46,333 nt of DNA from an uncultured Candidatus Saccharibacteria bacterium (GTDB taxonomy: Bacteria > Patescibacteriota > Saccharimonadia > Saccharimonadales > Saccharimonadaceae), in NCBI GenBank assembly GCA_946530935.1, contig CAMNAJ010000003.1, positions 1 to 46,333 of the forward strand, in the 5' to 3' direction. Positions 3-15,863 of the stretch are shown piece after piece. The stretch's first letter is position 1. The number at the start of each line of letters is the position of its first letter. The position numbers and the translations under genes were made by a program. The notes beneath the pieces are model-generated. The model was not told where the DNA came from. It worked only from the letters and a program-made list of their open reading frames with translations, and ran no database searches.

Positions 3-3000
3 ACCGCTCTTACAGATACACGTGATAATAATACGTATGCAATTGCAAAACTTGCTGATGGCAACTGTTGGATGATTGAAAACCTTCGTCTTGACGCGGC
101 GAACTCCACGGATTCTACTAAATCCCAAGGTGTTGGCGGTGTATTTGAAGGGCTCGCAAACTCAGAACTCACTACATTTATAAAAACGTCTATACTTGCA
201 AATTCAGTTTATACTACAGATACCACTTCAAATCTATTAACTGTTATTCAAGGTGACGATCTAGAGTATCGCATTCCAAGATACTATAGCAATATATCCT
301 ATGTTGTTTCATCAATGAAGTCAAAGGACGAAAACATCTATTCTTATGGTAATCTTTATAACTCTTCAGCCGCGCTTGCTAACACCAGTTATACAGATAG
401 AACTAGTCGTGATGCGGGCGCATCAATTTGTCCTGCTGGGTGGAGATTACCAACCGGTGGTACTGCCGAAGCAGAATTTGGAACCTTAAATGACGCAGTA
501 AACGCCGGTTCAACCACGACAAGCGCTGGTCTTAGAGCTTATCCAAATAACATGCTATTTTCAGGTTACGCATGGGAAGCCGAAATAATGAATCGCGGTA
601 CATCAGGGTATTACTGGAGTAAAACCATTAATAGTAACAGTGGAACATACATTTATAAAATAGATAGCGGCGTCACCAGCTTCTCAGTTTTCAAATCCGT
701 AGGGTCGTCAGTTAGATGTATTTCCGCTCCAGGATTAGAAATTAAGCTTGATTCTAATGATGGTACTGACAGGGTAGCCAGAGTATATGGAGCATCTGGT
801 GATACAATCTCGCTTCCATTTGAAGAAAGTTTCTACAATGAAAACTACAAGATTTCATCATGGAACACTAGCGCGGATGGTACAGGGACTAGCTATACTG
901 ATACATACACGATTTCAACAAGTACCACCCTTTACGCACAATGGGATACTGCCGCATATACGATTACATACCATGGCAATGGTGCAGAAAGCACTTATAA
1001 CATGAATAACATTTCTATTCCAAATGTTGCAGTCGGCACCACCATAAAACTTAATACGTCAAATTATCATCGCTCTGGTTATGGCTTCCTTGGCTGGTCC
1101 ACCACTCAGATTAACCCAGATGCGTCAAATGCATCTACGCTTATTGCCAATGCCAAAATCTTTGGTCCAAACGAGGATATTAAGGTAAATTCAACCAATC
1201 TAGGTGTTGACGCACCAGCAAATGTGACGCTCTATGCGGTTTGGCTTAAAGCTTCTGGTCTTATCCAAGACTGGACTGCCGCTAGCTGTGAAAGTATGAC
1301 CGCTGCTACTTATTCAGATGGAACAATCACGCCAGGAAGTGTGATTGCCCTTAGAGACTATCGTAATGACGAAACTTATGCTATTGCTAAACTTACTGAC
1401 GGCCAATGTTGGATGATTGAAAATCTCCGTCTAAATACTAGCACAGCAAGCATCACTACTATCACAACGAATAACCCTACAGCGGAATTCCTTTCAAAAA
1501 GATCAAATACGTATTCTTGGTGTAGTACAACGGACGAAGAATGTGCAACTAGAGTTTTGAGCGCAAATACAACCGGCGGCATAAGCAATGGGTACTTCTA
1601 TAACTGGTATACTGCAACAGCAGGAAACGGCGCTTACGAAACGCTAGATGCATCATCAGGCGATATTTGTCCAGCTGGGTGGCATTTGCCAACGGGTGGC
1701 CAGTATGGTGAAACTGGTTTACTAGTCACCTCTCTTGGATCGATCACTGATATAGTGGTATCTGAACCTGCGAAGTTAGCCATATCAAAGTCGTTAAGGG
1801 CATATCCTAATAACTTCATATATGGAGGCCATAAAGATGATTCAACGGTTTACGACCTGAACTCTGAGGGCGGATATTATACATCAACAGGTTTCGAATC
1901 ATCAGGTTCCTCCTTCAAATACGCTTATAACCTAATAATTAGAGATAATGCTCTTTATACAAGTAGCGGGTACCCTACAACGGTTGGCCTTAGCGCTCGC
2001 TGTGTGAAGAACGCTATGCTTATTAGTTATAACGGTAATGGCGCAACCGGTGGAACCACAATGGATATAACGCATAAAGTTAGAAATGGCCAAGAAGTTA
2101 CTCTAGCTGCGTCCAACTATTCTCGCTCCGGCTATGGCTTCCTCGGTTGGTCAACTACTCAAATCAACCCTGATTCATCAAATTTCTCCACGCTCCTTGC
2201 TAATGCTACGGTTTATGGTCCGAACGAAACTATCACAGTAGAAGGAACTACAGATATTACTCTCTATGCCGTCTGGATAAAGTCCGCCGGTGACATGCAA
2301 GGCTGGACCGGCTGTTCATCAATGTCAATCGGTGACGTGACTGCTAGAAAAGATACTCGCGATAACCAGATTTATGCCATCGCCAAGCTCGCTGATGGTA
2401 ACTGCTGGATGATTGAGAACTTACGTCTTAATAACACCAACTCATCCGATTCTACAAAGGCGCAAGGTTTTAGTGGTGTGTTCTATGGTCTGGCAGATTC
2501 TGAAACCTCGTCATTCACAACTTCCACATTAGCCAATACGCTTTATGCTTCAGATCAAAGCTCGCAATCTCTAAACATTGTAACCGGGGATAATATCTCA
2601 TACAGAATTCCTAGATATAATAACCAAAGCACTGCCAATACGGTATCGGCCATGACTGGGAATGCACAAAACGTATATTCTTATGGTAATTATTATAATT
2701 TCCCAGCCGCTAAGGCAAACACAAACTACAATAATATGTCTGGAACATCAATCTGCCCAGCTGGGTGGAGAATACCAACCGAGAGCATTACTAATGAGAT
2801 AGAAAACGAACTAGACAGCTCTAGTGAGACATTTGATTTAGACGTGTCTAAGAGAACTAGGGAATACCCGAACAACTTTATTCTTTCAGGATATATTTAT
2901 GAATCATCCGTGTCGGCAAGAGGAAGCACTGGTCGTTATTGGCTTGATGCACCAACATCATCAACATATGTTCCTTATATTGCAGTTACTTCTCAACAGG

Positions 3001-6000
3001 CATATCAAAATACATTATTAAGGTCTGTAGGCGCATCGGTAAGATGCATTGTAGCCACCGGATTAGAAATCAAGCTTGAAGCCAACGACGGAAGCAGTAG
3101 GGTTATGAGATTATACGGGAACGCTGGCAGTACTGTCTCAATCCCAAGCGAATCCTTCGCAAGATCCGGCTACGTTGTTGCATCCTGGAACACTAATAGT
3201 GCAGGTACCGGCACGTCATATTCCTCGTCTTATTCAATTCCAAGCAGTGCTACTACTGGTATAACACTATATGCACAATGGGCACCAACTTATTCAATAG
3301 TCTACGATGGCAATGGCGCGACGGGTACCACTAGTATGGCCGTAAAAAACGAAAACGTTACCGAAGGGTCTACGACGAATCTATATGCCTCTAATTATTC
3401 TAGATCTGGCTACGGCTTCCTCGGCTGGTCCCTCACTCAAATTGACCCAGATGCTTCAAATGCGTCTAGCCTCATCGCCGCTACAACCATTTTCGGACCT
3501 AATGAAACTATTACCGCAAACTCAACCACCCTTGGTCAATCGCTGAGTGGTTCACCGAAAGCCATTACGCTTTATGCTGTCTGGATTAAATCCGCTGGCA
3601 ATATGCAAGACTGGTCTGGTTGCTCATCTATGGCCACCGGTGAAGTCACAGCTAGAAGAGATGTTCGTGATGGTAACGTTTATGCCATCGCCAAGCTCGC
3701 CGATGGTAACTGCTGGATGATTGAAAACCTTAGGTTAAATAACAATACTACAAGTACAAACTGGGGCGACGCTACTCTCTCGCAAGGTTTTGGCGGCGTA
3801 TTTAATGGTCTAGCAAACTCAGAAACGACTGTTTATACTACCTCGGTCAATGCCAACTCGCTGTATACCACCAATAGTTCAACGAGTGGGTTAATATATG
3901 TATACTCCGATGGCAGTGAGAATTATAGCCTCATCCCAAGATATCGCGCAACCTCCTCTAGTGCTGACTCAGTCATGTATAGCGGTGATTCAACGGTGTA
4001 TTCATATGGAAACTATTATTCATCCTCAGCTGCGTACGCGAATACCACAAAATATACTACATCCTCTGGCACTAATGGCGTTGAAAGCGCCGGCACTTCA
4101 ATTTGCCCAGCCGGATGGATCTTACCTACTTATACAGTGTCAACCCAACTTGAAAATGCGATAAAAACCACTGGCGTATATGAAGCGACTGGTGGAGATT
4201 ACACAAAGTATCCAAATAACTTTGTCTATTCTGGCGAAGTATACTCTAGCACATTCCATAAGAGAGGTACGCAAGGTCGCTATGTAGTCCAGGGTATTTC
4301 CACATCCCCAAGGACAATGAGCTTCGCAACGACTAACAGCTGGAGTGGTTACTCCTTTGCATTCACGGTTCGTTGTCTCGCCGCTTCTGGTGTCCCAGTA
4401 ACCCTGAACGCTAATGATGGTAGCGGCAGGGTTGCACGTATCTATGGTACTGCAGGATCGGCGATTACGCTTCCAACTAGGAACTTCTCACAAACGGGAC
4501 AAGCCGTGAATTCCTGGAACACAAATGCCGCTGGTACTGGTAATGACTATACTACTTCCTACACTATTCCATCCGGTTCTACCGGTGTGACACTTTATGC
4601 TAAATGGGCCAGTACATATGTCATTAATTATGATCCTAATAACGCTGATGGCGGCGGCGGAATGGATATTACTATACAACAAGTGGTCCCAGGAACCGAA
4701 ATTACCCTCCATGCTCCGAATTATTCTCGTTCTGGCCACGGCTTCCTAGGCTGGTCCACTACTCAAATTAATCCAGCTGCCTCTGATTATGCAACTCAGC
4801 TCGCTAGTGCAACTATCTATGGGCCGAACGAGACTATTACTGCCCCGGCTAGAACCGGCGGCACGCTCACTCTTTACGCCGTTTGGATCAAGTCTTCTGG
4901 TAATATCCAAAACTGGACTGGATGTTCATCACTCTCAAGTGGTGGCGTCATTGGCTTAACTGATCTTCGCGATGATAATGTTTATGCGGTCGCCAAACTC
5001 GCCGACGGCAAATGCTGGATGATTGAAAACCTTAGATTAAGTAACAATACTACAAATTCAAACTGGGGCGACCCGACTCTTTCTCAAGGCTTCGGTGGTG
5101 TATTTAACGGCTTGGCAAACTCAGAAACTACGAACTTCAACTCAAGCACTATTGGTAATAGTCTTTATAGCATTGGTGGCAATACACAATATGTCTTAAG
5201 TCCTAGTGACTATTATACTAGACAGTCTAACTTCTCTGGTGAGTATATGCCAAGATTTAATAATTCCGCCACCACTAACACTTCATCTATGACCCAAAAC
5301 ACTAGCTTGGCCTACGAGTATGGTAATTATTATACAATGGCTGCAGCTATAGCTAACACAAGATACCATGGTACATCCTATGCTATGATGTCTGATGCCG
5401 AATCTGGTACTTCACTCTGCCCAGCTGGTTGGCAACTACCAACATCCGGTCCAACTTCAACCACCTCTGATTATAATACGCTCATTCAAACAGTTAACCC
5501 AAGTTCTACATACCCATCATCTTCAGCTGGTCTCAGAAAGTACCCAAATAACTTTGTTTATTCAGGATATAGGAACTATAGTTCACATACTGGCGCTGGC
5601 TCCAATGCTCGCTATTGGTCTAGAAAGTATTCTAGTTCAACCTCAAATTACGCACTAAGCTTTGGAGACTCTTATCCAAGTTATACGTCTTCAAGCTATC
5701 TCGGGTTCTCAATCCGCTGTATTGTTGCTACTGGTGTTCCAGTAACACTATATGCAAATGATGGTAGTAATAGAGTGTCGCGTATCTATGGCACTGCGGG
5801 CTCATCAATCAATCTCCCTGATAATGAATTCTCACAAAGTGATTATAAACTAACATCATGGAACACAAACGCGGCAGGCACTGGAACCACCTACACATCA
5901 ACATACACCATTCCTTCAGGATCTACAGGAGTAAGTTTATATGCTGTTTGGTCTCCATCCTACTCAATAGTCTACAACGGTAATGGTGCAACCGGCGCTA

Positions 6001-6986
6001 CCACTATGGCCGTAGAACATAGTAATGTTGCTGAAGGTGGTGATGTATTACTATATGCATCCAACTATTCTCGCTCCGGTTACGGCTTCCTGGGCTGGTC
6101 ATTTACTCAGATTGATCCAGATGCTTCAAATGCCACCACTCTTATTACAAATGCTACAGTTTATGGTCCTAATGAAATCATCACTGCTCCTGCTAAGACT
6201 ACAGACACCAGAACTCTCTATGCTGTTTGGGTAAAGTCTGCCGGTAATATGCAGAACTGGTCCGGGTGTCTATCTCTACCAAATAACGGCTTTACTGCTC
6301 TTACCGACACAAGAGACGGCAATACCTACGCAGTGGCACTTCTAGCAGACGGTAGATGCTGGATGATTGAAAACCTTCGCTTGAACCATACTGCCACTAT
6401 CAATACAACAAACTCACAGGGCTTCGGTGGTGTATTCTCTGGGCTAGCGGCATCAGAGAGTAATCTTAGTGGCACGACTGCCAATACACTTTATTCTACT
6501 TCAAATATCACAGGAGATAATCAGACTTATCGTTTCCCACGTTACAATAATATAAACACTAGCTCAACAGTTAGTTCAATGACTAGTGGTAACCAGAGTA
6601 TTTATTCATACGGTAACTATTACACGTGGGCTGCTGCGGTAGCCAACACCACAGATGTTGGGAGCGCAACAGATTCTGAAGCATTTGGTACTTCAATTTG
6701 TCCAAAAGGATGGCATATCCCAACCGGTGGCACAGATGGCACGAAAGAGTACTATAATCTCGGCGCACTCAATGATCTAATTGCGTATCCAAACAACTTC
6801 GTTTATTCGGGTTATCGTTCTTCAACAAGCACACCTTATCGCGGCAATGAAGGATTCTATTGGTCTCAAACTGCATCAAACTATACACAATCATACTATC
6901 TTGGTTTATCTGATTCCGGGCGGCGCTTATCAGGTGCGTATACTAAGAACTACGGTTTTGTGGTTCGCTGTATCGCCGGCTCCTAA
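3..6986 (+). CDS. Giant FISUMP/InlB-type repeat surface protein (5' end outside window)
   Basis: The frame is open from base 3, so the ATG at 72 is internal and the true start lies left of the window. The visible part is about 2,327 residues. It has six FISUMP-type domains (Fibrobacter succinogenes major paralogous domain family), each marked by CWMIENLRL, CPAGW-LPT, YPNN and a closing RC. The WMIENLRL motifs begin near 69, 1410, 2406, 3714, 5016 and 6360. Between them lie InlB B-repeat-like modules (ANDGxxRVxRxYG, SWNT, LYAQW) and a second module (GNGATG, RSGYGFLGW, YGPNE, LYAVW). The protein ends directly after the sixth domain (RCIAGS), with no LPXTG motif and no final membrane helix. Probably secreted and displayed on the cell surface; any adhesive role is inference. 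Composition is rich in Ser, Thr, Asn, Gly and Tyr. A related gene starts at 44707. Confidence 0.9.
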   Translation, partial: TALTDTRDNNTYAIAKLADGNCWMIENLRLDAANSTDSTKSQGVGGVFEGLANSELTTFIKTSILANSVYTTDTTSNLLTVIQGDDLEYRIPRYYSNISYVVSSMKSKDENIYSYGNLYNSSAALANTSYTDRTSRDAGASICPAGWRLPTGGTAEAEFGTLNDAVNAGSTTTSAGLRAYPNNMLFSGYAWEAEIMNRGTSGYYWSKTINSNSGTYIYKIDSGVTSFSVFKSVGSSVRCISAPGLEIKLDSNDGTDRVARVYGASGDTISLPFEESFYNENYKISSWNTSADGTGTSYTDTYTISTSTTLYAQWDTAAYTITYHGNGAESTYNMNNISIPNVAVGTTIKLNTSNYHRSGYGFLGWSTTQINPDASNASTLIANAKIFGPNEDIKVNSTNLGVDAPANVTLYAVWLKASGLIQDWTAASCESMTAATYSDGTITPGSVIALRDYRNDETYAIAKLTDGQCWMIENLRLNTSTASITTITTNNPTAEFLSKRSNTYSWCSTTDEECATRVLSANTTGGISNGYFYNWYTATAGNGAYETLDASSGDICPAGWHLPTGGQYGETGLLVTSLGSITDIVVSEPAKLAISKSLRAYPNNFIYGGHKDDSTVYDLNSEGGYYTSTGFESSGSSFKYAYNLIIRDNALYTSSGYPTTVGLSARCVKNAMLISYNGNGATGGTTMDITHKVRNGQEVTLAASNYSRSGYGFLGWSTTQINPDSSNFSTLLANATVYGPNETITVEGTTDITLYAVWIKSAGDMQGWTGCSSMSIGDVTARKDTRDNQIYAIAKLADGNCWMIENLRLNNTNSSDSTKAQGFSGVFYGLADSETSSFTTSTLANTLYASDQSSQSLNIVTGDNISYRIPRYNNQSTANTVSAMTGNAQNVYSYGNYYNFPAAKANTNYNNMSGTSICPAGWRIPTESITNEIENELDSSSETFDLDVSKRTREYPNNFILSGYIYESSVSARGSTGRYWLDAPTSSTYVPYIAVTSQQAYQNTLLRSVGASVRCIVATGLEIKLEANDGSSRVMRLYGNAGSTVSIPSESFARSGYVVASWNTNSAGTGTSYSSSYSIPSSATTGITLYAQWAPTYSIVYDGNGATGTTSMAVKNENVTEGSTTNLYASNYSRSGYGFLGWSLTQIDPDASNASSLIAATTIFGPNETITANSTTLGQSLSGSPKAITLYAVWIKSAGNMQDWSGCSSMATGEVTARRDVRDGNVYAIAKLADGNCWMIENLRLNNNTTSTNWGDATLSQGFGGVFNGLANSETTVYTTSVNANSLYTTNSSTSGLIYVYSDGSENYSLIPRYRATSSSADSVMYSGDSTVYSYGNYYSSSAAYANTTKYTTSSGTNGVESAGTSICPAGWILPTYTVSTQLENAIKTTGVYEATGGDYTKYPNNFVYSGEVYSSTFHKRGTQGRYVVQGISTSPRTMSFATTNSWSGYSFAFTVRCLAASGVPVTLNANDGSGRVARIYGTAGSAITLPTRNFSQTGQAVNSWNTNAAGTGNDYTTSYTIPSGSTGVTLYAKWASTYVINYDPNNADGGGGMDITIQQVVPGTEITLHAPNYSRSGHGFLGWSTTQINPAASDYATQLASATIYGPNETITAPARTGGTLTLYAVWIKSSGNIQNWTGCSSLSSGGVIGLTDLRDDNVYAVAKLADGKCWMIENLRLSNNTTNSNWGDPTLSQGFGGVFNGLANSETTNFNSSTIGNSLYSIGGNTQYVLSPSDYYTRQSNFSGEYMPRFNNSATTNTSSMTQNTSLAYEYGNYYTMAAAIANTRYHGTSYAMMSDAESGTSLCPAGWQLPTSGPTSTTSDYNTLIQTVNPSSTYPSSSAGLRKYPNNFVYSGYRNYSSHTGAGSNARYWSRKYSSSTSNYALSFGDSYPSYTSSSYLGFSIRCIVATGVPVTLYANDGSNRVSRIYGTAGSSINLPDNEFSQSDYKLTSWNTNAAGTGTTYTSTYTIPSGSTGVSLYAVWSPSYSIVYNGNGATGATTMAVEHSNVAEGGDVLLYASNYSRSGYGFLGWSFTQIDPDASNATTLITNATVYGPNEIITAPAKTTDTRTLYAVWVKSAGNMQNWSGCLSLPNNGFTALTDTRDGNTYAVALLADGRCWMIENLRLNHTATINTTNSQGFGGVFSGLAASESNLSGTTANTLYSTSNITGDNQTYRFPRYNNINTSSTVSSMTSGNQSIYSYGNYYTWAAAVANTTDVGSATDSEAFGTSICPKGWHIPTGGTDGTKEYYNLGALNDLIAYPNNFVYSGYRSSTSTPYRGNEGFYWSQTASNYTQSYYLGLSDSGRRLSGAYTKNYGFVVRCIAGS
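69..6986 (+). repeat. Six tandem FISUMP plus InlB-like units inside the giant gene
   Basis: Distances between successive WMIENLRL motifs are about 1341, 996, 1308, 1302 and 1344 bases. The second unit (1413-2409) is about 310 bases shorter because it lacks the ANDG/SWNT module. Copies four and five share nearly identical protein stretches (NWGD-TLSQGFGGVFNGLANSE) encoded with many synonymous differences, so the duplications are not recent and the protein sequence is under selection. The stretch between NLRLN and CPAGW, and the stretch before the closing RC, vary most. Confidence 0.85.
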
Positions 6987-9732: not shown

Positions 9733-10161
9733 GTGAACACCTTGAAAACCAAGTTTCGCCAAATAAAGTACAACCTAAAACACGGTTTTTTTTCGATAGA
9801 AAATGTCGTTTTAATTCTAGCTATCATCCTCTGTCTTACCTGGACTTACCAATCTATCCAGGCTATGTCCAGAAACTGGGAACTTACCGAACGTCTCAGT
9901 GCCGACAAAAAGAGTCTCGAACTCCTACAGATCGAAGTTGAAACCGCTGAACTGGAAAATGAATATTATCGCACCGATGAATACAAGGAATTATCCGCCC
10001 GTCGTCTAGCCAATAAGCAACTGCCCGGCGAATACATGGTATACTTACCGCCTAATTCCGAATCCGCCAAAAACAAGCATCAAGTTGCCACCATCATCAA
10101 AGGGGAAAAGCGATATTCCAATTTTGAAAAATGGATGATGTTTCTATTTCCAAATGTATAA
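9733..10161 (+). CDS. FtsB/DivIC-like septum formation initiator family protein
   Basis: 142 residues, GTG start seven bases after a -10 box. There is a short cytoplasmic N-terminus, one membrane helix (about 24-44, VVLILAIILCLTWTY), then a heptad-rich coiled coil (50-85, ELTERLSADKKSLELLQIEV) and a YKELSARRLANKQLPGE segment. This layout is that of the FtsB/DivIC/FtsL family, which bridges the divisome. The C-terminal part after the coiled coil resembles the usual LARE-xl-xxpgE region. It stands directly before the pseudopilin genes, so a role in the pilus cluster cannot be excluded. Confidence 0.65.
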   Translation: MNTLKTKFRQIKYNLKHGFFSIENVVLILAIILCLTWTYQSIQAMSRNWELTERLSADKKSLELLQIEVETAELENEYYRTDEYKELSARRLANKQLPGEYMVYLPPNSESAKNKHQVATIIKGEKRYSNFEKWMMFLFPNV

Positions 10162-10169
10162 AAAACTTA

Positions 10170-10178
10170 TGCTATAAT
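10170..10178 (+). promoter_or_regulatory. Leaderless extended -10 promoter
   Basis: TGCTATAAT, six bases before the ATG at 10185; no ribosome-binding site. Confidence 0.65.
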
Positions 10179-10184
10179 TAAAGT

Positions 10185-10997
10185 ATGAAAAAGGTTAAGC
10201 TTGGTTTCACCTTAATTGAAGTGTCTTTATTTTTGGCAATTACTGGCGCTTTATTTGTCAGCATTATTGTAGGCACCCAAAATTCAATCTGGCAACAAAA
10301 ATATAATGATTCCGTGCAAAACTTCACTAACTTTATTCGTAATGCTTATGCTCAAGTTTCGAATCCGCAGGGAATTGGCGATGGCCGTAGTGACCAAGCC
10401 ATTTACGGTAAACTTATCGTCTTTGGCCAAGAATATGATTTAAAGGGCGAAAAGATCCCAAGTGACGAACAAAGAATATTTATCTATGATGTAGTTGGTG
10501 ATGCTTCGAGCGTTGGCACTGGTTCAGTAATCGAAACCTTTAAAGCTTTAAGAATCAATGTGGTCGTTGAAGAAGTTAACGGTGGCACCACCAACGTTTC
10601 TCCGGCCGGTCTTGCAGATAGCTATGTACCAACCTGGGCCTCAGTAATCGAAAAAACCAGAGTCACTGCTGGTGCAGATAATAACTTCAAAGGTTCCATT
10701 TTGATTGTCCGCCATCCACGCTCTGGAATTATCAATACTCTATTTGCTGATCGCATTATCAAAGTCAATGAAGAAGTTAGAAATGCTCGCTTAAGCGGCA
10801 ATTATAGCGGCACCAGAACGCTTCTTACTAGCAAACTAGATTTCTTCTCAGTTGGACAAATCGATCTCTGTGTCAATCCTTATGGCATGGGTGAAATGGG
10901 TACATTTAGGCGTAATATCCGCATTGTCAAAAACGCCCGCAACTCATCTGGTGTCGAAATTATCGACCAAGACGCATCAGACAATTATTGCAAATAA
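10185..10997 (+). CDS. Type IV pseudopilin (prepilin N-methylation motif)
   Basis: 270 residues. The basic leader MKKVKLG is followed by the prepilin peptidase site G/FTLIEVSLFL, with the conserved Glu5 of the mature protein and a hydrophobic helix to about residue 32. Cleavage after Gly7 by PilD would give a minor pilin or pseudopilin; the large soluble domain suggests a minor subunit rather than the main filament. It is the first of three pilin-like genes and has its own leaderless promoter. Type IV pili in Saccharibacteria are linked to motility and host contact; the specific role of this subunit is inference. Confidence 0.85.
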   Translation: MKKVKLGFTLIEVSLFLAITGALFVSIIVGTQNSIWQQKYNDSVQNFTNFIRNAYAQVSNPQGIGDGRSDQAIYGKLIVFGQEYDLKGEKIPSDEQRIFIYDVVGDASSVGTGSVIETFKALRINVVVEEVNGGTTNVSPAGLADSYVPTWASVIEKTRVTAGADNNFKGSILIVRHPRSGIINTLFADRIIKVNEEVRNARLSGNYSGTRTLLTSKLDFFSVGQIDLCVNPYGMGEMGTFRRNIRIVKNARNSSGVEIIDQDASDNYCK

Positions 10998-11022
10998 AAT
11001 CTGGGTAAAAACATAATCATTA

Positions 11023-11031
11023 TGATATAAT
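11023..11031 (+). promoter_or_regulatory. Leaderless extended -10 promoter
   Basis: TGATATAAT, six bases before the ATG at 11038; no ribosome-binding site. Confidence 0.65.
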
Positions 11032-11037
11032 AATAGT

Positions 11038-11970
11038 ATGTCGAAAAAGGCTTATCGGGATGGGTTTACTTTGATTGAGCTGACGTTAGCTATGCTTTTT
11101 ATCGGTCTTCTTTCGATCTCGATTGTTCTTATCATTAGTAATACTGTTTCGGCCTTTCAGCGCGGTATGAAACTTAGCCGCGTTAACGCAGTTGGTACCG
11201 ACATTGTAGACGATATGCGCGCCTCAATTCAAAGCTCCTCCGCTAGAGGGTTACTAAATAGCTGTTATTCAAATGTTTTTGCTTCTGGCGTACCACTAGG
11301 CCCAGAACAACGTGATAAATGTGTAAAAGATAACGCAAAAAACTATGTGGCAGTATCCAAAGTTGCCAAAGTTAAAGTTAACGGTGTAGAACAAGAAGTC
11401 CCGATTCTTGGCGCCTTTTGTACCGGTTCATACACTTATATTTGGAACAGTGGCTACTTTGAAGCCGAAAACGTCACTTTCCCAGAAAGAACCAACAAAG
11501 ATTGGGCTAAAATCCGTTATATGGATGCTGGCGATATTAAAGAATATCCAGCCGCCGGTGCTAGACCGTTCCGTCTACTTCGCATCCAAGATGAAGCACG
11601 CATCTTTTGTCTTGCTGCAGTAGATAATACTGGTAATTCCTACGATTTACCAAATAACGGCATCAGCAACGTCTTTGATATTAGCACCATTAGCTACGGC
11701 CAGCTTCGCGATGATTTAGTTGATTTACTCCCACCAGACAGCGGGAACGATCTCGCCGTCTATGATATTTCAGTGGCACGTCCAGCCGTTAGTGAAAACG
11801 GCGACAATGCCTTCTATTCAGTTTCGTTTATTCTCGGCACCGTAACCGGTGGTGTAAACATTGTTGCTAACGGCAACTCGTGTGCTGCACCAAACGATTT
11901 GATGCCAGGGAATTACAATTATTGCGCGATTAATAAATTTAATTTTGCCGTACAGGTAAATGGAGGATAG
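11038..11970 (+). CDS. Type IV pseudopilin, PilW/minor-pilin-like
   Basis: 310 residues. Leader MSKKAYRDG followed by FTLIELTLAMLFIGLLSISIV, the class III prepilin signal with Glu5. A large extracellular domain follows, with several cysteines (for example SCYSNVF and RDKCV around residues 80-100, and a C-terminal pair SCAAP/YNYC). The size and position between a pseudopilin and a PilX-like gene match a minor-pilin set that primes pilus assembly. The stop TAG is immediately followed by the ATG of the next gene, preceded by GGAGG, so the two are translationally coupled. Confidence 0.85.
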   Translation: MSKKAYRDGFTLIELTLAMLFIGLLSISIVLIISNTVSAFQRGMKLSRVNAVGTDIVDDMRASIQSSSARGLLNSCYSNVFASGVPLGPEQRDKCVKDNAKNYVAVSKVAKVKVNGVEQEVPILGAFCTGSYTYIWNSGYFEAENVTFPERTNKDWAKIRYMDAGDIKEYPAAGARPFRLLRIQDEARIFCLAAVDNTGNSYDLPNNGISNVFDISTISYGQLRDDLVDLLPPDSGNDLAVYDISVARPAVSENGDNAFYSVSFILGTVTGGVNIVANGNSCAAPNDLMPGNYNYCAINKFNFAVQVNGG

Positions 11971-13302
11971 ATGAGAATAAAGGAAAAATTTAAATCAGGT
12001 GCTGCGTCATTCTACATTGTCGCATTTTCAACCTTGATTTTAATCATTATTGCAACAAGCTTTGCAGTTGCAATTGTGGCAGAAGTGACGCGTTCGTCAA
12101 ACGACGACCTTTCCCAATCTGCTTACGACGCCGCTCTTGCTGGTATTGAAGATGCCAAACTAACTTTTATGAATTACCAGAACTGTATTAATTCTGGTAA
12201 AACCTTTACCGACGATGCTCCAAACGATAATGGCGTAGTCACCTGCGACGATATCGTTTACTGGATGAATCACCCGGATTGTGACATGGTTGGTCATATT
12301 CTTGGACGCATCGATAAGACTGATAGCGGTGAAGTATTTGTTGAAGAAACTGAAAATTCCTCCGATTCGGGCAACAACGAGATGAACCAAGCTTACACCT
12401 GTGTGACGATTAAAACCAAACTAAATGACTACCGCGCAAGTCTTTCCTCAATGAATCCATATCGTATTGTTAAAGTCGATCTCGACAAGGCAAATGCCTC
12501 AGATATTCAAGCTGTAAAAATTAGCTGGTTCTTAAACGGCGGCACTCTTGCCCTTGATTACACCAACTATACTTCTGGACGCGTAGCTTTCCAGCCACTT
12601 AATTTAGTTAATGCTTCAACTCCTCCAACTCTCGCTGTTGAATTAATTCAAACCGCACAAAACTTCACCATGGCTCAACTAAACGGCACTACTTCAAGTA
12701 ACCGTACCGACCGTGCAACCGTTTATCTAGTTCCAACCGGCAGCGTCTCCCACGCTACTGGCACCACCCAAACCTACGTTGGCGCCTATGACTCCACAAA
12801 TCATCTCAACACGCTATCTGCTGCTCAAATTGCTGCCACTAACGATCATAGAAAGGATCTTCCATTTACCGTTTATTGTCCAGGTGACACAGTAACTGAC
12901 GAATACGTCTGTTCAACCACCTTGAATTTGCCAAAGCCAATTGGTGGGGAACGAAGTAAAGATACCTTCATGTTTGTCGTTTCTTTGCCTTATGGCCAGC
13001 CAGAAACCGATTTCTCACTTGAATTCATCTGTGCTGATGGCAAAGATTGTGGTTCTGCTACCGCTGGTGGTGGTTCAATGGGCGATACCTCTATTGCCTC
13101 TTTGAATGGTGTCCAGGTCCTCATCGACTCAACCGGCCGTGCTAACGATCTCTTCCGCCGCGTCGAAGTTCGTCTTGAGCCTGCTGACAACGCCTTTGCA
13201 TATCCGTTCTACGCAGTCCAAGTTGGCGAAAAACTCGAGAAAGACCTTACCGTTACTACAGAATGTAGCCTTCCATATAGCGCAGCAACCTGTCCACGTT
13301 AA
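11971..13302 (+). CDS. PilX-like pilus assembly protein
   Basis: 443 residues. It begins MRIKEKFKSGAASFYIVAF with one membrane helix (about 15-38). In place of the G/FTLIE site it has SGAASFYIV, as in PilX or GspK-like proteins where the motif is degenerate. The early AYDAALAGIEDA segment resembles the helix after the membrane part in PilX N-terminal domains (the SQAALAGIEdA pattern). The rest is a large secreted domain with paired cysteines. Its start follows the previous stop directly with a strong GGAGG site. End of the pilin cluster. Confidence 0.7.
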   Translation: MRIKEKFKSGAASFYIVAFSTLILIIIATSFAVAIVAEVTRSSNDDLSQSAYDAALAGIEDAKLTFMNYQNCINSGKTFTDDAPNDNGVVTCDDIVYWMNHPDCDMVGHILGRIDKTDSGEVFVEETENSSDSGNNEMNQAYTCVTIKTKLNDYRASLSSMNPYRIVKVDLDKANASDIQAVKISWFLNGGTLALDYTNYTSGRVAFQPLNLVNASTPPTLAVELIQTAQNFTMAQLNGTTSSNRTDRATVYLVPTGSVSHATGTTQTYVGAYDSTNHLNTLSAAQIAATNDHRKDLPFTVYCPGDTVTDEYVCSTTLNLPKPIGGERSKDTFMFVVSLPYGQPETDFSLEFICADGKDCGSATAGGGSMGDTSIASLNGVQVLIDSTGRANDLFRRVEVRLEPADNAFAYPFYAVQVGEKLEKDLTVTTECSLPYSAATCPR

Positions 13303-13453: not shown

Positions 13454-13495
13454 AAAAATCGGCCCGGGTTACCCCCCTAACCCAGGTCGATTTTT
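13454..13495. terminator. Long terminator hairpin between tRNA-fMet and the convergent flavoprotein gene
   Basis: 17-pair stem from AAAAATCGGCCCGGGTT and AACCCAGGTCGATTTTT, with one G-T pair and one mismatch and an eight-base loop. T-runs on both strands make it bidirectional. Confidence 0.85.
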
Positions 13496-13499
13496 GTTT

Positions 13500-14858
13500 T
13501 TAAAACAATTCACTAATTTCTGTAATCATCGAAGCGTAACTATTTGCAATATGTGGCGTATTATCGATGTCATCAATAGTAAGATTACGCTTTATAGCAA
13601 GAGCAAATTCGGCAATCATTAAACTAGCATTCGGCGCTACAATAGAAGCACCAAGGATCCTTCGATTATTTCCGATTAATACCTTAATCATTCCAGAATT
13701 AAATCTTTCAATTCTACTGATTGGAAGATCGCGTAAAACTAAGGATGCTTTTTTAAACTTTATACCTCGTTTCTTTAGCTCAGCCTCTGTTTCACCCACA
13801 ACTGCCACCTCAGGATAAGTATTAGTGACACGGCAAAAACCGCGGTAGTCTGGATAAATTCTACTCTTTTCTAACAGATTAGTTGCCAAAATCTTGCCCT
13901 GATATTCGGAGCGTTCTGTGGACGAGTCTCCACCTAATGCATCGCCGATTGCATAGATGTTCTTTTGTGAGGTTTGGAATAGCTTATTAACCTTAATGCC
14001 GTTTTTGTCGTATTTCACATTGGCATTTTCAAGCCCAAAATCTAGTACTGGTTTAGACCCAGTTGCAAGAATAATGCAATCAATCCTGAGTGATTTTTCG
14101 TGTCCTTCCGAAGATAAAATAACCTTTTTGCTAACATTATCTCGTTCTAACGCTACTACCTTTGTCTTTGTAGCAATCTTAACACCTAATTTCGTTGTAA
14201 GGTGCTCGGTAATTGCGGCGCTAACCTCAGAATCTTCTTTTGGCAGAATTCTATCCGCCGCCTCAACCATGAATACAGATGTGCCAAGCTCAGCTAAATA
14301 CGACGTAATTTCGCAGCCTGTTGCACCACCGCCAATTACCAAAGCATACTTCGGTAGCTTCCTCAGCTTAATGGCTGATTCTGGTGTCAAGAAGGGAACA
14401 GTATCAACTCCTACTATGTCACCAGTATCAAGCTTTGCACCAGTAGCTATAATGAAATTTTCAGAGGTAACCTGTTCTTGGCCCATAGCAATTGTATGGA
14501 CATCAAGAAAATGCGCATTGCCAAACATCGGGATTATGCCAGCTGAATCGTATATCTCTGTTGAACCGCCACCGAGTGCTGAAACAATTTGGTTTTGGTG
14601 CATCGTTACTGAAGGGAAATTAAAGTGTAGTTCCTGGCTATTTATCTCTGGATAGTTAGAAAGCCTTGAAAAAGTATGAGAAAAACCAAGGTTTACAAGA
14701 TATGGGATATCACGGGTATTTAGATTGTTGCCGCCAAAGGCATAACCTTCTACGATAGCAATTCTGTTCTTAGTTTTTTTAGCAAGATTTAAAGCGGCAG
14801 TAGTACCAGCCGGTCCACTACCGATTATTACATAATCAAAATTGTATTTTTTCCCCAT
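13500..14858 (-). CDS. FAD/NAD(P) oxidoreductase of the disulfide-reductase fold, without redox cysteines
   Basis: 452 residues. N-terminal FAD site GSGPAG (13-18), NAD(P) site IGGGATGCE in the middle, ATG at the domain hinge (IIATGAKL), second FAD contact IYAIGDALGG, and a C-terminal dimerisation domain. In dihydrolipoamide dehydrogenase relatives the active site reads GGTCxNxGCIP; here it is GGNNLNTRDIP (42-52), so both redox cysteines are replaced (Asn45, Asp50). The C-terminal HPTxxE motif is HIANSY, so its Glu is lost too. It cannot use a thiol/disulfide cycle; a quinone- or other acceptor-linked NAD(P)H oxidoreductase is plausible (compare mycobacterial LpdA-like enzymes). Last gene of a three-gene minus-strand operon, nine bases after its neighbour. 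Confidence 0.85.
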   Translation of the reverse strand: MGKKYNFDYVIIGSGPAGTTAALNLAKKTKNRIAIVEGYAFGGNNLNTRDIPYLVNLGFSHTFSRLSNYPEINSQELHFNFPSVTMHQNQIVSALGGGSTEIYDSAGIIPMFGNAHFLDVHTIAMGQEQVTSENFIIATGAKLDTGDIVGVDTVPFLTPESAIKLRKLPKYALVIGGGATGCEITSYLAELGTSVFMVEAADRILPKEDSEVSAAITEHLTTKLGVKIATKTKVVALERDNVSKKVILSSEGHEKSLRIDCIILATGSKPVLDFGLENANVKYDKNGIKVNKLFQTSQKNIYAIGDALGGDSSTERSEYQGKILATNLLEKSRIYPDYRGFCRVTNTYPEVAVVGETEAELKKRGIKFKKASLVLRDLPISRIERFNSGMIKVLIGNNRRILGASIVAPNASLMIAEFALAIKRNLTIDDIDNTPHIANSYASMITEISELF

Positions 14859-14866
14859 ACTTACCT

Positions 14867-15106
14867 CTATATTATTTTATCACGGTTTTGATAAACATAA
14901 GCAAAATCCGCATTGTACTTCTTCAACTCTTTTACTACCAACCGATCTAAATCAGCCCTTGTAATTACTGTTTTCTTCTTTAAGTTATTCTTTACGACCT
15001 TAATTGTAGCATCAATAAATGACTCCGCTGCACCTACCGGAATTCTCAGCGCTCTGGCGTGGATTTTTAGTTCTTTTCTTAATTCTTTCTCAGTATTACT
15101 ATCCAT
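14867..15106 (-). CDS. Small helical protein, weakly ATP-cone-like
   Basis: 79 residues, mostly helical and basic, without membrane segments. The C-terminal half (VITRADLDRLVVKELKKYN followed by FAYVYQNRDK) resembles the last helices of ATP-cone domains, which end in a similar Tyr-containing YxxYR pattern; the N-terminal strand part is missing. The start overlaps the end of the membrane-protein gene by eight bases and the stop is nine bases before the flavoprotein, so the three are surely co-transcribed. The link with ATP-cone proteins is weak; otherwise an unknown protein. Confidence 0.6.
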   Translation of the reverse strand: MDSNTEKELRKELKIHARALRIPVGAAESFIDATIKVVKNNLKKKTVITRADLDRLVVKELKKYNADFAYVYQNRDKII

Positions 15107-15803
15107 ATTGCACTCCTAGCCAAGCCATCGTACCTGCGAGTAATGTAAAGGTTATAAATAGGCCAATCTTAATAAATGCTTTTCTTTTTACCCGTTTTTT
15201 CTCAATTTCCGCCAGATTATGGTCTAGCCTGAATAGCGTCCTCATATAGAAAAGTGGAATCACCGAAATAACCACGTATAAAATCATAATTGCAGCGCGT
15301 GGTAAAGCAGGAGACTCTAGCAAGGCAATCACGCCGGCAATATAAATTGGAAGAGTAAACACCAATTCGAATGCCCCCACGATAAAGCCAAGCACAAACG
15401 CATCGGAACGTGTTTTGATGCTTTTAGCTTTGACAGTTATACCATTTGTAATGGAGCGCGGTACATATAATTCTGTAAGCTTACCCTTCCTATAATAAAA
15501 CAACAAACTAGTAATTGCTTCTGCAATAAAAACACCAAATAACACCCAAGGGACAATCTTGAACGCAATACCAGATGTTTCGCCAATTAGATTTGATAGC
15601 AGAAGATAAACTATCAGCCACATCCCGCCAATAAATATTTCCGCCCCTAGAATAAAATAAAGGCAAAAATTGTCAGCTTTAACAAATGTATTTTTACCTA
15701 GAGCGTAATGATAAAAAAGCGCTAGCGTACCAGGTGTCAGTTGCATGAATAGTTGAATAAGCGTAATCAGTATCAGAATAATTACAGAGATGAAGATGCC
15801 CAT
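15099..15803 (-). CDS. Six-helix membrane protein, LysE/CcdA-superfamily-like
   Basis: 234 residues with about six hydrophobic helices. The first has a conserved-looking QLTPGTLALFYHYALGK turn, and the fourth contains GFIVGAFELVFTLPIYIAG, which resembles the GxxxGxxxxPCxxP helix of CcdA/DsbD and the LysE superfamily, but with no cysteine. A basic cytoplasmic loop lies between helices three and four. First gene of an operon with the small helical protein and the cysteine-less flavoprotein, suggesting electron transfer or export across the membrane without thiol chemistry (inference). Leaderless promoter upstream. Confidence 0.65.
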   Translation of the reverse strand: MGIFISVIILILITLIQLFMQLTPGTLALFYHYALGKNTFVKADNFCLYFILGAEIFIGGMWLIVYLLLSNLIGETSGIAFKIVPWVLFGVFIAEAITSLLFYYRKGKLTELYVPRSITNGITVKAKSIKTRSDAFVLGFIVGAFELVFTLPIYIAGVIALLESPALPRAAIMILYVVISVIPLFYMRTLFRLDHNLAEIEKKRVKRKAFIKIGLFITFTLLAGTMAWLGVQYG

Positions 15804-15809
15804 GCTTTG

Positions 15810-15818
15810 ATTATAACA
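15810..15818 (-). promoter_or_regulatory. Leaderless extended -10 promoter of the 15803 operon
   Basis: TGTTATAAT on the minus strand, six bases before the ATG at 15803. Confidence 0.65.
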
Positions 15819-15863
15819 TGTAGAGGGTTGTATTTCTAGGAACGTTTTGTTACCGTCGTGAGC

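Follow-up and report, generated by a model that had tools for sequence, protein, structure and literature searches.

A thiol-free three-gene cassette in Saccharibacteria related to CcdA-type membrane proteins and flavoprotein disulfide reductases

Layout of the cassette

We analyzed a stretch of 46,333 nucleotides from an uncultured Candidatus Saccharibacteria bacterium (assembly GCA_946530935.1, contig CAMNAJ010000003.1), here called the window. Positions 13500 to 15803 hold a tight cassette of three minus-strand genes for a membrane protein, a small protein, and a flavoprotein, and the cassette lacks the redox cysteine pairs (Table 1). A sequence-only reading of the same DNA had described these genes as one unit with overlapping or nine-base junctions. 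The overlap is present, with the membrane and cone genes sharing 8 bases, but the gap between the cone and flavoprotein genes is 8 bases rather than nine. Upstream, a sigma-70-like −10 element (TGnTATAAT) ends 6 bases before the membrane-gene ATG, although sigma-70-like matches occur over the region at chance level; the membrane gene possibly has a leaderless start. The promoter-like site, the tight junctions, and the terminator-like hairpin together make the three genes look like one unit. An alternative genetic code was rejected, as the three frames are identical under table 25 and these same proteins also use ordinary cysteine codons.

Genes with type IV pilin-like N termini (FTLIE) and no Pfam match lie at positions 9733 to 13302 of the window and precede a tRNA-Met gene, and genes resembling them also flank the cassette in other members of the genus. 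Positions 72 to 6986 encode a probable surface protein of 2304 residues, which contains Listeria-Bacteroides repeats and Fib_succ_major domains.

Table 1. Features of the cassette in window coordinates
Feature	Position	Strand	Basis or conservation
Promoter-like site, sigma-70-like −10 TGnTATAAT	15810..15838	-	pattern match only
Membrane gene, 234 aa, CcdA/DsbD-derived, Cys pairs lost	15099..15803	-	ORF and homology
Gln21-Leu22, replacing first CcdA Pro-Cys pair	15738..15743	-	Gln 118/142, Leu 123/142 cassettes
Glu146-Leu-Val-Phe149, replacing CcdA ELPC	15357..15368	-	Glu 138/142, Phe 113/142 cassettes
Truncated ATP-cone gene, 79 aa	14867..15106	-	family PF03477 matches
Cys-less flavoprotein disulfide reductase homologue gene, 452 aa	13500..14858	-	Pfam domains and structure model
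FAD-binding GSGPAG, residues 13-18	14805..14822	-	three glycines in 35/35 window-genus sequences
Asn45 to Asp50 (NLNTRD), replacing CxxxxC redox pair	14709..14726	-	alignment position
NAD-binding GGGATG, residues 176-181	14316..14333	-	three glycines in 35/35 window-genus sequences
His436-Ile-Ala438...Ser443, lost catalytic His-Glu dyad	13530..13553	-	alignment
Terminator-like hairpin, then T run, 3' of flavoprotein gene	13463..13486	-	end of unit

The three proteins and their missing catalytic residues

The flavoprotein has the complete architecture of a flavoprotein disulfide reductase, with the Pfam domains Pyr_redox_2 (E value, 1e-50) and Pyr_redox_dim (E value, 2e-20) and both the FAD and the NAD motifs, and it scored under every listed cutoff of the NCBIfam equivalogs. 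Its AlphaFold2 (AF2) model (pLDDT, 92.4) matched dihydrolipoyl dehydrogenase 6uzi best in the PDB (TM-score, 0.91) and aligned with dihydrolipoyl dehydrogenases and mercuric reductases at TM-scores of about 0.9. This likeness covers the whole fold, the FAD and NAD sites, and the dimerization domain, but the cassette protein has neither the CxxxxC pair nor the catalytic His-Glu dyad of those enzymes. The alignment agreed with the sequence-only reading that Asn45 and Asp50 replace the redox cysteines and that the C-terminal Glu is gone (Ser443), and the catalytic His is lost as well (Ala438). Within the window genus, position 45 is Asn in 29 of 35 sequences and position 50 is Asp in 33 of 35; over 142 distinct cassettes, this flavin-proximal position is Asp in 110 and Asp or Asn in 124. 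Relatives that keep the cysteines have Phe or Tyr at position 438 and Glu or Gln at position 443, with the window genus mixed, and because these cysteine-bearing relatives already have Phe or Tyr at 438, the loss of the catalytic His is older. The flavin-side Lys of dihydrolipoyl dehydrogenase (LPD; position 54) is absent from most of the window genus. Both Glu199 and Asp306 occur in all 35 window-genus flavoproteins, and the acidic Glu199 suggests a preference for NADH. Two genus members (L041 and L044) have a shortened or altered flavin-side loop, and the L059 flavoprotein has most of this loop ("GGxxLNTRDI") deleted, with the three genes kept.

By itself, the window membrane protein gave no meaningful Pfam match. 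However, the profile of its family aligned with that of its cysteine-bearing (Cys-type) relatives over nearly the full length (hhalign Prob, 99.1; E value, 8e-19; 216 columns), and two of these relatives exceed the gathering cutoff of DsbD_TM (PF02683). The profiles thus tie the protein to the CcdA/DsbD group, as the earlier comparison with CcdA had proposed. It shares with that group a six-helix membrane protein with helix breaks at the CcdA Pro-Cys sites; in its AF2 model (pLDDT, 91), the helices are broken at residues 20-21 and 146, and these breaks coincide with the positions of the two pairs. In place of the redox cysteines, however, stand Gln21-Leu22 and Val148-Phe149; at the second site the Glu of ELPC is retained and the Cys is Phe. 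The LPIY motif that had been equated with the PCxxP of CcdA aligns instead with GAPY, after the second pair. A further difference is that the partner gene in the cassette encodes a flavoprotein and not a thioredoxin. No obvious cofactor ligand was found in the membrane protein. A conserved cytosolic loop has the motif FYYRxGxxTxLWxPR. A Foldseek search of its model against the PDB gave no significant match, and neither VIA-align nor sequence comparison gave a convincing one, the solved CcdA included; VIA-align matched large transporters with middling scores, no higher than helical proteins would give anyway. Membership in the TerC, TauE, or LysE families was rejected, with no Pfam match for the membrane protein or its relatives.

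Both redox-active membrane cysteines are absent from 134 of the 142 cassettes. A thiol relay could in principle persist through other cysteines, namely, Cys182, Cys261, and Cys342 of the window flavoprotein and Cys47 of the membrane protein. We consider this barely plausible, as Cys47 is the sole cysteine of the window membrane protein, the membrane proteins of some relatives (L141 and L103) have no cysteine at all, and the set left in the flavoprotein varies among relatives.

The 79-residue protein gave no meaningful Pfam match alone, but 13 of 23 orthologues at the same position in the cassette matched the ATP-cone family (PF03477; best E value, 1.3e-8), and its description as ATP-cone-like was thus borne out through its relatives. 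Relatives in this slot are complete ATP-cones, whereas the cassette cone is a stand-alone protein that has lost the N-terminal hairpin in the window genus, including the window's own copy. The K-R motif of that hairpin is present in 7 of 7 Cys-type cones versus 2 of 36 cones of the window genus. No convincing solved relative of the cone protein was found.

These features bear on the main rival to the reading as an NADH flavoenzyme that we set out below, namely, that the membrane protein is a small transporter of the LysE-like superfamily with Gln21 and Glu146 as its substrate site. Transport would then be gated by the flavoprotein as an NADH/NAD+ sensor and by the cone as an adenine-nucleotide sensor, with zero net electron flow across the membrane. 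The Cys-type membrane relatives match SfLAP (PF11139) as well as DsbD_TM, conserved Gln and Glu residues occupy the two helix breaks, and ATP-cones generally act as allosteric sensors. The loss of the catalytic Cys, His, and Glu together and the retention of the three genes in L059 despite its damaged loop are also in keeping with a sensor. However, Asp50 and Asn45 are conserved at the flavin face beyond the need of a mere nucleotide sensor, the window-genus cone lacks its N-terminal hairpin, and no fold match to transporters was secured. On balance, we consider a gated transporter unlikely.

Distribution of the cassette and order of the cysteine losses

Among 151 genomes of the window's family, the flavoprotein is found in 132, the membrane protein in 125, and the cone in 105. 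Of 55 loci chosen by the flavoprotein alone, 54 have the membrane gene next to it, and the 55th has an insert. The genes are thus neighbors almost everywhere, and the possibility raised earlier that they would not be neighbors in any relative did not hold. Chance does not explain the gene order or the Cys-less state, since both are found again and again throughout an entire bacterial family. Named loci with the cassette are nearly all from Candidatus Saccharibacteria, and it is missing from all matches that were assigned to clearly other phyla. In other parts of the phylum, the cassette was absent at the examined loci with the same flavoprotein subtype. No PADLOC match was found, and a role in phage defense was rejected.

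The cassette could also be a decaying relic without function, which would fit the loss of catalytic residues in all three partners and the lack of a match in some genomes of the family and genus. This is the least credible of the explanations. Frames are open in nearly all genomes, and closely related pairs of Cys-less cassettes gave dN/dS values of about 0.02 to 0.06 for the flavoprotein and mostly <0.2 for its partners, with most values in related Cys-less cassettes <0.1. The pairs come from elsewhere in the family, outside the window genus, whose own sequences are too divergent for this test, and many dS values are saturated.

Thiols are retained on both sides of the cassette in eight genomes of other Saccharibacteria families. 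These Cys-type cassettes combine a CcdA/DsbD-type membrane protein (NPCAIG and ELPCTG motifs), a complete ATP-cone, and a CxxxxC flavoprotein (GGECPN[W/Y/F]xC); in one of them (L098), the cone gene is absent between the other two. The existence of relatives with both Cys pairs supports the earlier proposal that the window cassette descends from a thiol-transfer system that lost its thiols in both partners. In each of the eight Cys-type cassettes, a gene for a membrane-anchored Cys/His-rich protein lies upstream, either overlapping or adjacent; it is present in 10 of 244 genomes of the class and in none of the window's family. This fourth protein (L099:5631-6512, L094:5450-6505, L097:4171-5172, and others) has invariant Cys and the motif "GPVHWHADIEFWACG...HEHxDKRIHLEG." It belongs to no Pfam family, yielded no convincing solved relative, and is possibly a metal-binding end acceptor. 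The ancestral cassette looks like a short DsbD-like route, in which electrons would pass from NADH through FAD, the CxxxxC pair, and the CcdA-type protein to a protein outside. At many other-family loci (L094 to L099, L101, L103, L149, and L150), a gene for a P-type cation ATPase, often divergently transcribed, lies close to the cassette or flavoprotein. Another candidate phyla radiation genome shows a second membrane/flavoprotein pairing, where a DsbD-type membrane gene overlaps a MerA-like flavoprotein gene (L169:4069-6179; GGTCVNVGCVPSK, C-terminal SCCI).

Both cysteine pairs are present in 8 of the 142 cassettes, the flavoprotein pair only in 5, a single flavoprotein Cys in 2, and neither pair in 127, counts that do not stand for events, independent losses being few. 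No cassette of the 142 combines a Cys-bearing membrane protein with a Cys-less flavoprotein. Because the intermediates are seen and the reverse combination never is, the membrane side lost its thiols before the flavoprotein. A sign test on independent pairs had two pairs only and thus no power. In a tree built without the motif columns, the Cys-bearing cassette is the older state, and the flavoprotein pair requires three changes and the membrane pair two. A single clade of Cys-less flavoproteins, and with it a single origin, was rejected (p-AU, 4.8e-8), and the flavoprotein cysteines disappeared on three or more branches. At the flavin-proximal position, Cys gave way to Asp at least twice, in the crown of the family and in L151, which retains the first Cys. 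The sequence-only reading had held that thiol chemistry was removed from the partners in step; both did lose it, but the losses were not simultaneous, as the membrane protein went first: at five sampled loci, the flavoprotein keeps CxxxxC beside a membrane partner that is already Cys-less.

These data also bear on whether the proteins act together. They could be cotranscribed but separate; the flavoprotein would then be a soluble diaphorase or oxidase for NADH, and the other two proteins would have a different task. Two Cys-less flavoproteins (L110 and L126) have no membrane or cone gene nearby, and inserts of about 1.2 and 2.7 kb separate the cone and flavoprotein genes in L147 and L211, respectively. 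Separate action is nevertheless improbable in our judgment, given a gene order preserved over dozens of genera and cysteine losses that are ordered between the two partners.

A possible thiol-free electron path

Several LPD-like flavoproteins are short of one or both redox cysteines (PMC6296175). Mycobacterium tuberculosis LpdA lacks one Cys and the His-Glu dyad, and yeast Irc15p lacks both Cys and keeps the dyad; both are given there as quinone reductases or diaphorases and not as disulfide reductases. Unlike for the cassette protein, the relevant passages of that source mention no membrane or ATP-cone partner for them. SthA, also LPD-like, is described in the same text as lacking at least one redox Cys and the His, but it is a soluble transhydrogenase, and its NCBIfam model matched the cassette flavoprotein far below the cutoff. 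By analogy with LpdA and Irc15p, the most probable role of the cassette is that of an NADH flavoenzyme docked at the membrane that hands electrons to a non-thiol acceptor. As a full account, we tentatively favor descent from a one-step thiol relay across the membrane, with the thiols since lost and the enzyme working in this way.

The older state in the tree combines a CcdA/DsbD-type two-Cys membrane protein and an ATP-cone with a CxxxxC flavoprotein, and a secreted Cys/His-rich protein is usually encoded next to them. On the way to the window, the fourth gene disappeared together with the cysteines of the membrane protein, and those of the flavoprotein followed later. The FAD and NAD sites were conserved throughout, and new conserved residues came to occupy the former thiol positions; Asp50 would stand in for the thiolate beside the flavin. 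The flavoprotein would still dock on the membrane protein and be reduced by NADH, and the FAD electrons may pass to a non-thiol acceptor at the membrane, such as a scavenged quinone, another lipid-soluble carrier, free flavin, or O2. The role of the membrane protein would be docking or acceptor binding, and that of the cone would be regulatory or structural. Weighing against this account are the absence of COX1 matches and near absence of UbiA in the window genus, the lost flavin-side Lys, the lack of an obvious cofactor ligand in the membrane protein, and the deleted loop of L059.

The sequence-only reading had suggested a quinone- or lipid-linked electron path. An endogenous quinone path is unsupported for the window genome; a lipid or a scavenged quinone may serve instead. 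COX1 oxidase was not found in this genome or in the listed members of its genus, nor was the UbiA prenyltransferase, except for one fragment in G116; because no COX1 and only one UbiA fragment were found, an endogenous quinone is unlikely in the genus, and endogenous quinone respiration there is unsupported. For a soil Saccharibacterium, quinone scavenging has been proposed (PMC6031116). A COX1-type oxidase is present in many environmental relatives of the window's family, and many cassette-bearing genomes of that family are without COX1. COX1 was found in Cys-less or intermediate genomes (G211, G269, and G049) and was missing from Cys-type genomes (G215 and G275) and G244, a pattern that is suggestive in few cases.

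Seen more broadly, it is possible, although we put this cautiously, that a DsbD-type transmembrane thiol relay was converted stepwise into a thiol-free complex for membrane redox or redox-gated transport, in which the former cysteine sites gained new conserved residues and of which extant intermediates preserve the membrane-first order. The thiol-free set may now serve an undescribed role. A literature search restricted to openly licensed papers found no description of such a cassette, in line with the earlier remark that none was known.

When catalytic cysteines disappear, the usual conclusion is decay, but here the partners stayed together under strong selection, with ordered losses on separate branches and new conserved residues at the same sites. 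The ordered loss and the retained pairing therefore provide a natural series, with thiols on both sides, in the flavoprotein only, or on neither side, for asking how a thiol electron path changes its chemistry. Saccharibacteria are tiny and parasitic. Few members of the candidate phyla radiation have been cultivated, and Saccharibacteria are among them; a gene-knockout method exists for them (PMC10633639), and the cassette poses a defined question of function for these bacteria.
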